Part shown: piece by piece, positions 5,958 through 24,076 of the stretch
Position numbering within the stretch: position 1 is the first letter of the stretch
How the letters are laid out: each line of letters starts with the position of its first letter
IMG/VR virus record: IMGVR_UViG_3300046012_000214
Coordinates: 1-27,516 of that record
DNA from: a virus
Length of the DNA stretch: 27,516 nucleotides
Direction: 5' to 3' (one strand)
Translations under genes and position numbers: made by a program
The notes under the pieces: model-generated
Told to the model about the DNA's origin: nothing
The model's input: the letters and a program-made list of their open reading frames with translations, nothing else
The model's database searches: none

Positions 5958-6275
5958 TCAGGCGGCGAGCTCGTGCTCGTTCGGAAAGGGGCTCGGATCG
6001 ATGGACGGATCCAGGAACCACTCGACCTGTCGGCCCGTTGCCTTTCCGATGCTCCGCAGGGTCTCCGCGCGGGGACGGTGTACGGCCTTCTCGAGCTTGA
6101 TCAGGTGCTGGCGCGTGACGCCGCCCATCTCGGCTCCGAGTTGATCGAGGGTGAGTCCCTGCGGCTGCGGTTCGGCTGTCTTGCGGGCGCGCTTGATCCG
6201 GGTCGCGATCAGCTGTGCCGGCGCCTGACGGATGCGCTCCTGCAGTTCCTCGTCGCTCATAACCGGCATTGCCAT
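5958..6275 (-). CDS. Cro/CI-type HTH regulator, first gene of early operon
   Basis: A 105-aa protein with an XRE-type helix-turn-helix: the domain runs about residues 24-92 with LTLDQLGAEMGGVTRQHLIKLE as the recognition region and the later GKATGRQVEWFLDP helix common in phage repressors. The ATG (6275-6273) lies 6 nt after a TATAAA -10 box, so transcript start and start codon probably coincide (leaderless), as for lambda cI from PRM. The operator-like palindrome 6276-6293 abuts the ATG, implying autoregulation. As it heads the early operon it takes the Cro position, but it could be the maintenance repressor; the sequence cannot decide. Confidence 0.85.
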   Translation of the reverse strand: MAMPVMSDEELQERIRQAPAQLIATRIKRARKTAEPQPQGLTLDQLGAEMGGVTRQHLIKLEKAVHRPRAETLRSIGKATGRQVEWFLDPSIDPSPFPNEHELAA

Positions 6276-6293
6276 GTAGCGTTTATACGCTAC
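6276..6293. promoter_or_regulatory. Operator-like inverted repeat O1
   Basis: GTAGCG-N6-CGCTAC is a perfect 6-bp inverted repeat covering the -10 box of the minus-strand promoter and ending at the ATG of the HTH gene. A bound dimer here would block transcription of the early operon. The TACGCTACGT unit beginning at 6286 is repeated directly at 6296. Confidence 0.7.
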
Positions 6294-6311
6294 GTTACGC
6301 TACGTAGTCAA
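6282..6311 (-). promoter_or_regulatory. Early leftward promoter, TTGACT-N18-TATAAA
   Basis: On the minus strand TTGACT (6311-6306, five of six bases of the sigma70-type -35 consensus) is followed after 18 nt by TATAAA (6287-6282) and, 6 nt later, the ATG at 6275. This is the best promoter in the window. The -10 lies inside O1, and O2 covers the -35 and spacer, so both can be occluded by a repressor. The transcript would be leaderless. Confidence 0.7.
6296..6311. promoter_or_regulatory. Operator-like site O2, imperfect
   Basis: TACGCTACGTAGTCAA contains the 8-bp palindrome CTACGTAG (6300-6307). Its left part is the second copy of the direct 10-bp repeat TACGCTACGT, first copy 6286-6295. It resembles the left and central parts of O3 but the right arm is degenerate. 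It overlaps the -35 of the leftward promoter. Confidence 0.6.
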
Positions 6312-6344: not shown

Positions 6345-6360
6345 CACGCTACGTAGCGTG
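6345..6360. promoter_or_regulatory. Operator O3, 16-bp perfect palindrome
   Basis: CACGCTACGTAGCGTG is a perfect 16-bp palindrome, the best copy of the ACGCTACGT core also present in O1 and O2. It runs into the GTG start (6358) of the plus-strand regulator, so a bound protein would stop its transcription or early elongation. Three graded sites between divergent HTH genes match a lambda-like switch. Confidence 0.75.
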
Positions 6361-6771
6361 GGCTGGAAACGACGGGGAATCCTCGATCCCATCTACGCGC
6401 GCCTAGCCGCAGAGGGGCACTCGGACGCGCGCGACGAGCTCGCACGACGGACGGGGATTCCGGGCACCAATCTCAGCGCCATCAACCGCGCGAACCGCGC
6501 GATGACTGATGGCTACGCGATCCGAATCGCGAACGCCGTCGAAGGTGTCAGCCCTGCAGATCTCGGGTCAGATGCAGGAGGGGGCGGCGCTCAAGCCCTA
6601 TTGACGCTCGACCGCCTTCAAGCACTTGAAGCGGCGTTCCGAGAGGAGCAAACGGCGCGAGACCTAGTGAGCGCCGCGCTTGCTTCACAGCTGGCTGATC
6701 TTGAAGCAGCCCTGGCGCAAGTAGCGCCTGGAGTAGTTCAGCAGGTGAGGGAGGGGCGCAGTACGCCGTGA
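6358..6771 (+). CDS. Plus-strand HTH regulator with coiled-coil tail
   Basis: Preferred start GTG 6358 gives 137 aa; a TTG at 6322 would add 12 residues and read through operator O3. Residues about 18-68 form an XRE-like helix-turn-helix (DARDELARRTGI, then PGTNLSAINRANRAM as probable recognition helix, then TDGYAIRIANAVEG). A Gly-rich hinge follows, and a C-terminal amphipathic helix (LQALEAAFREEQTARDL onwards) probably makes a dimer coiled coil. No Shine-Dalgarno is visible, fitting a leaderless or near-leaderless mRNA. It faces away from the early operon, the usual orientation of a lysogeny repressor, and the gene after it on the same strand is the double-glycine peptide. Confidence 0.75.
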   Translation: MGWKRRGILDPIYARLAAEGHSDARDELARRTGIPGTNLSAINRANRAMTDGYAIRIANAVEGVSPADLGSDAGGGGAQALLTLDRLQALEAAFREEQTARDLVSAALASQLADLEAALAQVAPGVVQQVREGRSTP

Positions 6772-6943
6772 GATCGTGCCGGTCTGGATTCATTGCCGCC
6801 AGCCCCGAGCGCGAGCCCGCCTGGACGGAAGACCCTAGACCGCCGGCCGGACGAACTCGATGCGGCCCAGTGCCTGCCACAGATGACCGCAGCCTAACCC
6901 CATGACTATGGGCAAGGGCATCACACGAAGGAGTGATTTTGAA

Positions 6944-7129
6944 ATGGCTCGCCGCTCGAAAGAACCGAGACCTTCCCGCATTCGGGACCTATCAGCGGAG
7001 GAGGTGCGCGAGCTCACGGGCGGCGGGCTCTTGCGGGCGATCCCGATCGTGAAGCTTTTCGACATGCTCCGCGGCAAGTCGAAGCCATCGAACTTCTCAG
7101 ATACGGCGCCGCGCGACGAAGGCAGCTAG
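6944..7129 (+). CDS. Small peptide with double-glycine-type leader
   Basis: A 61-aa ORF from ATG 6944 (AAGGAG 10 nt upstream); an ATG at 6902 in the same frame lacks such a site. Residues 16-27, LSAEEVRELTGG, align position by position with the LSxxELxxIxGG leader consensus of class II bacteriocins, microcins and peptide pheromones that are trimmed and exported by C39-peptidase ABC transporters. Predicted cleavage after G27 leaves a 34-residue part beginning GLLRAIPIVKLFDMLRGK, amphipathic and cationic, then a polar tail. It has no Cys. The gap from the upstream regulator (6772-6943) shows no clear promoter or terminator. No transporter lies in the window, so export would need host machinery. 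Motif fit is direct; function is inference and chance is possible. Confidence 0.6.
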   Translation: MARRSKEPRPSRIRDLSAEEVRELTGGGLLRAIPIVKLFDMLRGKSKPSNFSDTAPRDEGS

Positions 7130-7134
7130 CTAGC
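7125..7134. other. Palindromic stop-stop junction of convergent operons
   Basis: The TAG of the plus-strand peptide gene (7127-7129) and the TAG of the minus-strand glycosidase gene (7132-7130) abut inside the palindrome GCTAGCTAGC. No rho-independent terminator is visible between the two operons, so each transcript should run antisense into the other. Confidence 0.7.
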
Positions 7135-8461
7135 GGGCGTTCTGCTCGAACGTCTGATAGGCAGGCCGCTGGTTGCGGCTGTTGTCCATCAGCCCGAAGC
7201 CGCCCGGTGACGCGTCGTTCAGCAGCGAGTACGCGAGGAACGACGCGATCGGGACGGTGACGGTGTAGCCGTGCGACACGCAGCCCTTCGCTCGAGCGCA
7301 CATGCCTGTCGCGACGGCGTCGTTCTGCGCAGAGGTGCCGTTGCGGTCGGCGCTGTCGCCGGCCTCGGTGGTGATGATGGGCACGGAGCTCATGCCGAGC
7401 GAGTTGAGCACGGCCCTGATGTCGGGTAGCCACGGCCACTGGTTCCACGACCTGTCGCCAGAGACGTAGCCGTACAGGTGCTCGTCGTAGACGTCGGGTC
7501 GTGCGCCCGCTTGCAGGAACTCCTTGTCCCACGCGAATCCGTCGGCGACGTTCTGTGATCGGGTCTTCCATGTTGAGGGGCCGATTACGGCCGCGTTCGA
7601 GTTGACGGCCTTGATCGCAGCCTTGCCCGCCTGGAAGTAGGCGGCGGCGTCCTGCGGTGTCCAGCCAGACATGTCGGGCTCGTTCAGCAGGTTGATGTAG
7701 CGGTAGCCGAGCTGTGCGAGCTGGCCGGCCTGCGTCGCGAACACCGACTGCGATGGCCGGTTGCCGGGGTCGTAGTTCAGGATCGGCATCAGCACGATCG
7801 ATGGCCTCGCTGCGATCTTCGGCGCGAGCGCTTGGAAGCCGGCGTTGCCGGGCCACCAGTCGAGCCGCAGGAACATCGGGTGGCCGTGGCCGAGCTCGAC
7901 GATCCGGTCGAGCATCCAGTCCTGGTCGGCGGAGCTCTTCCCGGTGATGTTGCCGAGCGGCATCGACAAGCCCTGCTGCGGCATCGACAGCGGCGGCGGC
8001 GTCTGGGTTGTCGTCGGCGCCGTTGTCGTGGCGGGCGGCGCAGGCGCCGGATAGGTGACCGACCCGGAGACGCCTTCAACGACCGGAACGACCGCATAGA
8101 CGTGCCCGGGCGGCGACGGCTGCTTCTTGAACTTCGCTGTCGAGAGCGCCGGGTTCCAGGTGTTCGAGACGCGAGCGCCGTCGACCTTGAACTCGTAGCC
8201 GACTATCCCTGTCGGTGGCGTCCACGCCACCTGGAACGTCGATGTGTTGTCGGCGATGATCTCGAGCTGTAGCGATCCGGTCGCGGCGACCGCGAGCCGC
8301 TCTGAATGAGCGACGACCGCGGGAGCAGGTGCGGTCGTGACAGCGAGCGTCGTCGTCTGGTTCGTCGACGGGCCGCCGCCGCCCGTGCTGAGAACCACGG
8401 CGGCCGCGACGCCGGCAACTCCCGCCGCGGCAATGGCGATGTGACGAGACGCGCGCATCAT
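7130..8461 (-). CDS. Secreted or anchored clan GH-A glycoside hydrolase-like protein
   Basis: A 443-aa protein. Residues 8-24 are a hydrophobic signal or anchor helix followed by a Gly/Ser/Thr-rich stretch. About 62-137 resemble a fibronectin type III domain. A Pro/Thr linker (139-160) leads to a TIM-barrel-like domain (165-443) with YRYINLLNEPD, candidate acid/base E261 after N260, YDEHLY (H328), and PIITTEAGDS, candidate nucleophile E366. These are the NEP and TEAG strand-4/7 motifs of GH5/GH39-type clan A enzymes. Substrate is unknown; with the lysis genes immediately upstream, a host envelope polysaccharide is a reasonable guess. Two consecutive ATGs occur at the start; GAGG suits the second better. 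The exact GH family is not certain. Confidence 0.75.
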   Translation of the reverse strand: MMRASRHIAIAAAGVAGVAAAVVLSTGGGGPSTNQTTTLAVTTAPAPAVVAHSERLAVAATGSLQLEIIADNTSTFQVAWTPPTGIVGYEFKVDGARVSNTWNPALSTAKFKKQPSPPGHVYAVVPVVEGVSGSVTYPAPAPPATTTAPTTTQTPPPLSMPQQGLSMPLGNITGKSSADQDWMLDRIVELGHGHPMFLRLDWWPGNAGFQALAPKIAARPSIVLMPILNYDPGNRPSQSVFATQAGQLAQLGYRYINLLNEPDMSGWTPQDAAAYFQAGKAAIKAVNSNAAVIGPSTWKTRSQNVADGFAWDKEFLQAGARPDVYDEHLYGYVSGDRSWNQWPWLPDIRAVLNSLGMSSVPIITTEAGDSADRNGTSAQNDAVATGMCARAKGCVSHGYTVTVPIASFLAYSLLNDASPGGFGLMDNSRNQRPAYQTFEQNAR

Positions 8462-21409: not shown

Positions 21410-24076
21410 TTACGAGTGCAGGATCTGCAGCATCTGGAACGCCTTGGCGGTCCGGAGTGCCGAGGTGTTGCGGAAGTACGCGTACAGCGCCCGGGCGCCC
21501 GTGAGCTTCCCGTTGCCGTCGCGCACCAGCGGGTCGAGCTCGACGTTGAGCCCGATCCGGTCGACGATCACGAATCCGCGGCCGAAGTCACCGAGGATCA
21601 GCACCTTCTCGCTGCCGGTCGTGACGCCAGTCGACATCGCCGAGGCGACGTTCACCGGGTAGTCGAGCATCGTGTACCCGGTCGTGCCCGTCGGCCGGTT
21701 CCGGAACCCCTGCGAGAAGGGGACCCAGAAGTCCGTCCGTGAGCTGGTCAGCGCCCTCAGGTGCGAGAACACCGACCGGTTGCCGATCCACTGCGCGTTC
21801 GCGTCGAACCGCGGCGGCAGCGCATCGATGAGCAGGTCGAGGTCGGCGAGCGCCAGCGTGTTCACCGACGCCGTGTCCACCGTCACCGTGCCGTCGGCGA
21901 TCAAGGCGGTGATCAGGCCCTCCGGCTCGTTCGTGCCCGAGCCGAGGAGGAACTTGTTCGCCTCCTTCTCGTCCTTGGCCTCCTGGAACATCAGCCCGAG
22001 CTCGCCGCGAAGCGCCGACCAGTCCTGATCGACCTCGATCGAGAACTGCACCTCGGCCTGCGCCTTCACGACCGTGACGTCCGGTGCGGCGAAGGTCGGC
22101 GACTGCGGGTTGACCGCGGTGAGCTCTGCGGCGTAGTCAATCGTCACGCCGTCAGAGCTGATGCCGCGCCAGGTGTTCCCGGTGATCGACACGACCCGGG
22201 CGATCTGCCGCATCGGGTTCGCGGCCCCGTCGGAGGTGTGGAGCACCGTCGGATCGATCGTGACCGGCACCGGCGTCTCGGAGCCGAGCCCGCCAACCGA
22301 CACCGCCTGGTTGATCAGGCTCTGCTCGACCTGGCCGAGCGGCTTGCCCATCACGAGCTTGCCGAACGCCGCGTCGAACTCCTTGCTCGACGTGAGCAGG
22401 AACCGCTGAGCGAACGCGCCGTCCTTCGAGTCGGCCGACTGCAGGAGCCGCTCCACGAACGCGCGCGGCTTGTCCGGGTCGGCGGTCTCGTAGGCGACGA
22501 TCTCGTTCACGCGGCGTGCCCCCTCCGCGAAGAGAGCGCCCATCTCGTCGATCGAGCCTGCCCGCTTGCGGTACTCCTCGACCGCCCACGGGTTCTCCGG
22601 GACGTTGCGGTGTGCCGCGGTGATGACCGAAGGTGCGCCACGGCGAGCCGTCGCCACATCGGTCGCGGTCGCCGCGTTGATGCCGCCCTCGCGAGCGTCC
22701 GCGTTACCGCCCTTCATCGCGATCGACCGTGCGCGGTTCTTCATGTCGTCGATCGCCGTCTGGTTGGCGACCCACTCGTCCTCGAGACCCTCGAACTCGA
22801 CTTTCGGGTCACCCTCTAGAGCCTTGCCGATGTGGTCGGCGTCGATCTCCCTCTGCCGCGCGAGGATCGCGTCCTGACGCGCGACGAGCTCTTCCATCGT
22901 CTGCACTTTGCCCTCCTTGGGCGTGGTGGTAGGTGCCGTCGCCGTCGCGCGGCCCTCGGCCCCGGGCGGGGTCGAGCTCGACGCCTCGCCGGCGTCGGAG
23001 TCTTCGGTAGGCGCGTCGTCGCCAGGCCCGTCGGCCGGCTCTTCGCCTTCGTGCTCGTGCTCTTCGTCGTCCCGTGCTTCAGCAGCGGGCAGTTGGGACG
23101 TCATCCTCACTCCGCCCTGGAAGAGCGAACTTGCGGCCGCTGAGGCGGAAAGGGTCGCCGAGTCGAGCGTTCCGTACGCGAGCTCGCCGCTCTGCAGAGT
23201 GATCACCTCGCGTTGCTGATCGCTTGACGAGCGTCCGCCGCTCTTCAACAGGCCGCCGATCACCTTCTCGAGCGTGTCGATCCGGTCGACCATCCCCGCC
23301 GCGAGCGCATCCTGAGCGGTCAGCAGGCGCCCCTGCCCGTAGCTGTTCCGCACGACTGCTTCGGAGACGCCACGCCCCTTCGCGACGTCGGCGACGAAGC
23401 CCTCCTGGAATTGGTCGACCATCCGCTGCATCGCCGCCTCGGCCTCCGGCGTCAGCTCGCGGAACGGTGCGTCCTCGGTCTTGAACTGGCCGGCCTGGAT
23501 CGCGGTGATCTTCACGCCCTCCGCCTCGAGCGCGCCGGTCAGGTCCTGGTGGAGCATGTAGGTGCCGACCGACCCGACTAGCGCCGACGGGGTCGCGACG
23601 AACTCGTCGGCCTGTGCAGCGAGCCGGTACGCGGCCGACGCCGCCATCTGGTTCGCGACCGCGACGAGCGGCTTGCGCTTGCCCTGACGGAGGATCTGCG
23701 CGGTCTCGCCGAGCATCGCGACCGACCCGCCCGGCGAGTCGACGTCGATGACGACCGCCGACACGTTCGGGTCGGCCATCACCTCCCGGTAGGCGGACGC
23801 GAACGCGTCGAGCGACGTGCCGCCGCTGATCTCGGCCATCAGCGTCGCGCGCGGGAAGATCGACCCGGCGAGCGGCAGCACCGCCACCGCGCCCGGCGAC
23901 GTGCGCGCGCGCTGGGGCGCGGCCGCGTGGATCTCCGCGAGCTCTTCCTCGGACAGCCGCCCGCCGGCGAGCACGCGCTGCCATGCACCGCGGATCTCGA
24001 GCAGCTTCGACGGCAGGATCTGCCACGGACGTTCGGCGACCAACTCGCCGATAAGCGGGTAGCTGTGCGGTTTCAT
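21410..24076 (-). CDS. Fused S49 prohead protease, acidic linker and HK97 major capsid protein
   Basis: An uninterrupted 888-aa ORF (AAGGAG 9 nt before ATG 24076). Residues 60-280 are an S49/SppA-type protease: DSPGG (about 113-117), nucleophile Ser147 in QMAASAAY, and Lys199 in QFKTEDAPF, the Ser-Lys dyad with a 52-residue gap as in Bacillus SppA. Residues 325-390 are a very acidic linker resembling a scaffold. From about 394 a coiled-coil delta-domain-like region (MEELVARQDAILARQREID) precedes an HK97-fold capsid (about 480-888; TSDGAANPMRQIARVVSITG, VQFSIEVDQDWSAL, LLGSGTNEPEGL, GDFGRGFVIVDRIGLNVELD). Internal ribosome sites suggest the capsid is also made separately (see 22904-22918). The fusion is visible directly; separate products are inferred. 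Confidence 0.85.
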   Translation of the reverse strand: MKPHSYPLIGELVAERPWQILPSKLLEIRGAWQRVLAGGRLSEEELAEIHAAAPQRARTSPGAVAVLPLAGSIFPRATLMAEISGGTSLDAFASAYREVMADPNVSAVVIDVDSPGGSVAMLGETAQILRQGKRKPLVAVANQMAASAAYRLAAQADEFVATPSALVGSVGTYMLHQDLTGALEAEGVKITAIQAGQFKTEDAPFRELTPEAEAAMQRMVDQFQEGFVADVAKGRGVSEAVVRNSYGQGRLLTAQDALAAGMVDRIDTLEKVIGGLLKSGGRSSSDQQREVITLQSGELAYGTLDSATLSASAAASSLFQGGVRMTSQLPAAEARDDEEHEHEGEEPADGPGDDAPTEDSDAGEASSSTPPGAEGRATATAPTTTPKEGKVQTMEELVARQDAILARQREIDADHIGKALEGDPKVEFEGLEDEWVANQTAIDDMKNRARSIAMKGGNADAREGGINAATATDVATARRGAPSVITAAHRNVPENPWAVEEYRKRAGSIDEMGALFAEGARRVNEIVAYETADPDKPRAFVERLLQSADSKDGAFAQRFLLTSSKEFDAAFGKLVMGKPLGQVEQSLINQAVSVGGLGSETPVPVTIDPTVLHTSDGAANPMRQIARVVSITGNTWRGISSDGVTIDYAAELTAVNPQSPTFAAPDVTVVKAQAEVQFSIEVDQDWSALRGELGLMFQEAKDEKEANKFLLGSGTNEPEGLITALIADGTVTVDTASVNTLALADLDLLIDALPPRFDANAQWIGNRSVFSHLRALTSSRTDFWVPFSQGFRNRPTGTTGYTMLDYPVNVASAMSTGVTTGSEKVLILGDFGRGFVIVDRIGLNVELDPLVRDGNGKLTGARALYAYFRNTSALRTAKAFQMLQILHS
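22904..22918 (-). promoter_or_regulatory. Internal ribosome site and GTG start for capsid alone
   Basis: Inside the fused ORF, AAGGAGGG lies upstream of in-frame GTG (residue 391, 22906-22904) with 5-nt spacing from AAGGAGG, and an ATG follows at residue 394 (22897-22895). Starting here would make a 498-aa capsid precursor with its delta domain, without the protease. A second candidate, GGAG 5 nt before ATG 23104-23102 (residue 325), would give linker plus capsid. Confidence 0.65.

Follow-up and report, generated by a model that had tools for sequence, protein, structure and literature searches.

Genes and operator-like repeats at the locus

The DNA analysed here, referred to as the window, is a virus record of 27,516 bases (IMG/VR IMGVR_UViG_3300046012_000214), which is classed as linear and is therefore probably a fragment. 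In its left part, two divergent regulator genes flank a pair of operator-like repeats, and a small open reading frame (ORF) follows the rightward regulator:

5958..6275, minus strand: HTH_3 regulator that opens the leftward early operon, in a Cro-like position (Pfam HTH_3, E=1.5e-7)
6285..6307, no strand: operator-like 23-mer repeat ATACGCTACGTTACGCTACGTAG on the HTH_3 side (repeat search)
6346..6359, no strand: perfect palindrome ACGCTACGTAGCGT, which shares bases with the GTG start codon of the plus-strand regulator (repeat search)
6358..6771, plus strand: divergent regulator of 137 aa, probable repressor-side gene (relatives by tblastn and alignment)
6944..7129, plus strand: 61-aa orphan small protein (Shine-Dalgarno sequence AAGGAG, weak coding signal, no homologue found)
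6989..7024, plus strand: LSAEEVRELTGG block, residues 16-27 of the 61-aa protein, like a double-glycine leader but probably by coincidence (motif counts)
7130..8461, minus strand: convergent late gene of 443 aa; its stop codon and that of the 61-aa ORF are directly adjacent

The two repeats are related to each other and border the divergent promoters, and the GTG start of the plus-strand regulator is located at the edge of the palindrome. Recomputation reproduced the coordinates and translation of the 61-aa ORF given by a sequence-only reading of this DNA, as well as its placement downstream of the regulator on the same strand, the other likely genes being on the minus strand. The 61-aa gene occupies the repressor side, opposite to the lytic operons.

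The sequence AAGGAG, a good Shine-Dalgarno sequence, was found 10 nt before the ATG at 6944; a six-base match in this range precedes just 8 of the 488 ATGs in the window (1.6%). Since the in-frame upstream ATGs at 6902 and 6908 showed no such sequence on inspection, the start at 6944 is preferred. At its other end, the ORF terminates exactly where the convergent gene ends. At 0.11 per codon, the ORF has a weak codon signal, and 19 of the 105 window ORFs of similar size score higher. Likely genes of the minus strand scored 0.02-0.48, while the upstream regulator, a gene with relatives, scored about 0. Scanning of the plus strand for promoters and terminators recognised none of the scanned types. 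We consider the ORF to be probably a real gene. The N-terminal region of the encoded protein is rich in Arg and Pro, its maximum hydropathy of 1.23 does not indicate clear membrane binding, and its AlphaFold model was of low confidence (pLDDT 67). The convergent gene at 7130-8461 encodes a protein with a signal-like start, and its NEPD and TTEAGD stretches resemble by eye a glycosidase of clan GH-A; it gave no Pfam match and no significant relative of solved structure.

Homologues of the 61-aa protein were sought in several collections. Searching phages by tblastn with E up to 10 returned chance matches only, a scan of IMG/VR peptides and 23 related phage records yielded no homologue, Pfam, PHROGs, NCBIfam and PADLOC gave nothing, and the matches in 129 host-order genomes were at chance level (best E 0.017). 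This absence holds for the collections searched, and homologues may occur elsewhere. Because no homologue was found, any function proposed for the protein is drawn from its position.

A portal protein, a PDDEXK nuclease and an AAA protein were recognised in the window by Pfam. In a single 888-aa ORF at 21410-24076 on the minus strand, Pfam identified an S49 protease domain fused to that of a phage capsid protein. The nearest terminases belong to other IMG/VR phages (57-80% identity) and to one contig of an actinobacterial metagenome-assembled genome (MAG; 59%), which carries an integrase too. Known phages with a terminase relative, all below 60% identity, mostly infect Actinobacteria. Given these relatives and the actinobacterial MAG contig, the host is probably an actinobacterium, an assignment that we treat as provisional. 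An integrase is encoded in 7 related records, and none was found in the window record, itself probably a fragment.

A slot for one small gene behind the divergent regulator

Relatives of the HTH_3 gene were found in six phage records, five of which contain a divergent second regulator (L082, L083, L085, L108 and L109), while no clear divergent gene was seen in the sixth (L084). The relationship of these second regulators to the plus-strand regulator of the window was detected by tblastn for L082, L108 and L085 and by alignment for L083; the L109 gene was assigned by its position and its HTH-plus-coiled-coil look only. The L085 protein showed a weak match to Cro/C1-type HTH domains. Similar operator-like repeats are present between the divergent genes of L083, L085 and L108. 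A search with the plus-strand regulator of the window as the query found no additional relatives, further scans returned already known phages only, and one alignment was set aside as too diverse. A pattern search for the operator plus start gave one match, in an unrelated phage. The HTH_3 profile gave weak general HTH matches in host-order genomes, and the fetched pieces of the phages with the closest terminases (L002-L011) contained no tblastn match to either regulator.

In all five records, one small gene is located 93-175 bp downstream of the divergent regulator, and the gap in the window is 172 bp. The content of this syntenic slot varies among the related phages. Four of the genes encode predicted membrane proteins with a maximum 19-residue hydropathy of 1.8-2.5, namely proteins of 97 and 107 aa in L082 and L085, which are similar to each other by eye, a 119-aa protein with a zinc-ribbon-like tail in L083, and a 66-aa protein in L109. 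The fifth, in L108, is lipoprotein-like, with a lipobox-like LAGC start and a weak LPAM_1 match. The L083 gene (5072-5431, minus strand) combines transmembrane segments with a C-terminal zinc-ribbon-like stretch, which matches UPF0547 with an E of 9.8e-6, below the curated cut-off. In the L108 gene (250-786, minus strand), the lipoprotein-like start MKRLLVLAAALATLAGC is followed by doubtful sequence, possibly reflecting a frameshift.

The double-glycine-like block and its background

Double-glycine leaders of class II bacteriocins and ComC peptides carry the pattern LSxxE[LV]xx[IL]xGG near the N-terminus, a feature shared by the 61-aa protein. From this likeness, the sequence-only reading proposed a leader for export by host C39 ABC transporters, followed by a cationic, amphipathic core. 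The block LSAEEVRELTGG does agree with LSxxELxxIxGG at the fixed positions L-12, S-11, E-8, G-2 and G-1, and its departures, V-7 and L-4, are both conservative changes; it occupies residues 16-27, so that its end falls within the 15-30 residues from the start that are usual for such leaders. The strict motif, which was chosen after the sequence had been read, was absent from the rest of the phage and genome loci fetched, which together amount to 3.47 million codons over six frames, and its occurrence in a single window is improbable on that count.

The genomes of the candidate-host order gave a different picture of this motif. Searched for as a DNA pattern, the strict motif had 17 matches in 61 genomes, against 3 for a reversed control pattern, and the former number is an undercount because the pattern covered only CTN leucines and TCN serines. 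None of the 17 matches, when read in frame, is a convincing leader peptide. Most of them sit deep within long open frames of ordinary cytosolic proteins, which by eye suggest a polymerase subunit, an aminoacyl-tRNA synthetase, an ABC ATPase, and MurF-like and FolC-like proteins. In one case (L186), a possible start lies 15 residues before the end of the motif, and the frame extends beyond it by over 300 residues. Some matches fall in possibly non-coding frames; one of these (L176) has leader-like spacing, with a start 24 residues before the end of GG and a further 67 residues following it, and the frame is Arg-rich and looks like an antisense reading. Judged by these counterparts, LSAEEVRELTGG appears to be a helix-turn type segment common to ordinary proteins and not diagnostic of a leader, and its resemblance to an export leader is probably coincidental.

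The exporter and the core were examined as well. Of 61 genomes from the candidate-host order, 3 contained the C39 peptidase domain (PF03412), as did 7 of 149 from the class (about 5%), by a search that was positive in 8 of 14 control genomes; no C39 exporter was found in the candidate host MAG, whose identity as host is uncertain. Because the host is uncertain, this rarity lowers the likelihood of export without removing it. The 34 residues after GG have a net charge of +2, the hydrophobic moments of 18-residue segments over GLLRAIPIVKLFDMLRGK and its neighbours were 0.04-0.25, and a proline is present within the GLLRAIPIVKLFDMLRGK stretch. The description of the core as cationic and amphipathic was not borne out by these values, and an amphipathic-helix core was rejected on the computed moments. 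Such a core is typical of bacteriocins but not of all double-glycine peptides. A literature search for phage-encoded secreted peptides of the double-glycine type found no paper.

Interpretation of the small gene

We lean modestly towards the explanation that the 61-aa ORF is a real orphan accessory ('moron') gene of a temperate, probably actinobacterial, phage. The gene would fill the slot that is taken in relatives by unrelated small genes for membrane proteins or a lipoprotein. Expression in lysogens, as suggested earlier from the sequence, is plausible because of the position on the repressor side of the divergent switch and the single small accessory genes that relatives carry there; on this explanation the protein would most likely be made in lysogens, from the repressor promoter or from one within the 172-bp gap. 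It would work within the cell or on the inner membrane face, with exclusion of other phages as its most plausible role, and LSAEEVRELTGG would remain uncleaved as an ordinary helix-turn segment. Both the position and the variability of the slot fit a repressor-linked accessory gene. Against this explanation, the protein is not clearly membrane-bound (1.23), unlike the slot proteins of the relatives; the coding signal is weak, the function is taken from position, and neither a plus-strand promoter nor a terminator was recognised. The integrase missing from the record, the null result of PADLOC and the low AlphaFold confidence (pLDDT 67) also weigh against it.

Other explanations were compared with this one. 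The weak codon signal, the presence of 105 window ORFs of comparable length and the lack of a homologue in the collections searched would also suit an untranslated sequence, either an ORF that arose by chance in non-coding DNA or what is left of a decayed gene. We regard this as unlikely, though the least unlikely of the alternatives, in view of the strong Shine-Dalgarno sequence found at so few ATGs, the agreement of position and gap with the slot genes of five relatives, and the exact coincidence of the ORF end with that of the convergent gene. A small cytosolic protein that partners the upstream regulator and tunes the lysis-lysogeny switch, as co-repressor, antirepressor or stabiliser, would agree with the location directly downstream on the same strand and with a protein that is soluble rather than membrane-like. 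The 172-bp gap to the regulator and the other small genes in the slot of the relatives, which suit accessory genes better than the partner of a conserved regulator, render this partner improbable.

A true double-glycine precursor, made in lysogens, cut after G27 by a host C39-peptidase ABC exporter and secreted as a bacteriocin, exclusion factor or signal, is very improbable in our judgement. The consensus residues at every fixed position, the suitable distance of 27 residues to a start that a good Shine-Dalgarno sequence precedes, the otherwise missing motif in the fetched codons and the C39 peptidases of some candidate-host relatives speak for it. They are outweighed by the 17 other motif sites with no convincing leader, the scarcity of exporters, present in about 5% of candidate-class genomes and not found in the candidate host MAG, the lack of homologues in which conservation of the GG block could be followed, the core that is not amphipathic and the Arg/Pro-rich N-terminus. 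It would be striking if the phage did borrow an exporter of its host, but the motif alone is insufficient, and the genome-wide control illustrates that short leader motifs require a background count.

Known systems offer parallels to both the accessory gene and the exported precursor. Genes 43 and 44 of Gordonia phage CarolAnn are defence genes co-expressed with the repressor, which their authors liken to lambda rexAB, and they resemble the present arrangement as accessory genes beside a repressor-side regulator on the same strand of a temperate phage (PMC6426606). The related genes Sbash 30/31 are expressed from a promoter of their own (PMC6426596). The exclusion genes adjacent to lambda cI are comparable in position to the 61-aa gene. 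CarolAnn differs in having two genes with tested defence, in contrast to a single 61-aa orphan of putative function with no relative detected. In SP-beta, the prophage-encoded sublancin precursor SunA shares an operon with its exporter SunT, and the leader is removed on export (PMC6391423). The likeness lies in a small phage-borne precursor, with a leader function that is only putative in the 61-aa protein, whereas the SunT and modification genes of the SunA operon have no counterpart seen in the window. From the class II bacteriocin and ComC peptides, the 61-aa gene differs in that no dedicated exporter was seen with it, no homologue was found in the collections searched, the core is not amphipathic and the motif is non-diagnostic in the candidate host group.

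The useful point of the locus is the slot itself: these mosaic temperate phages keep one interchangeable small gene, often for a membrane protein, at a distance of some 100-175 bp downstream of the divergent regulator, and this makes the phage group a source of candidate exclusion genes.
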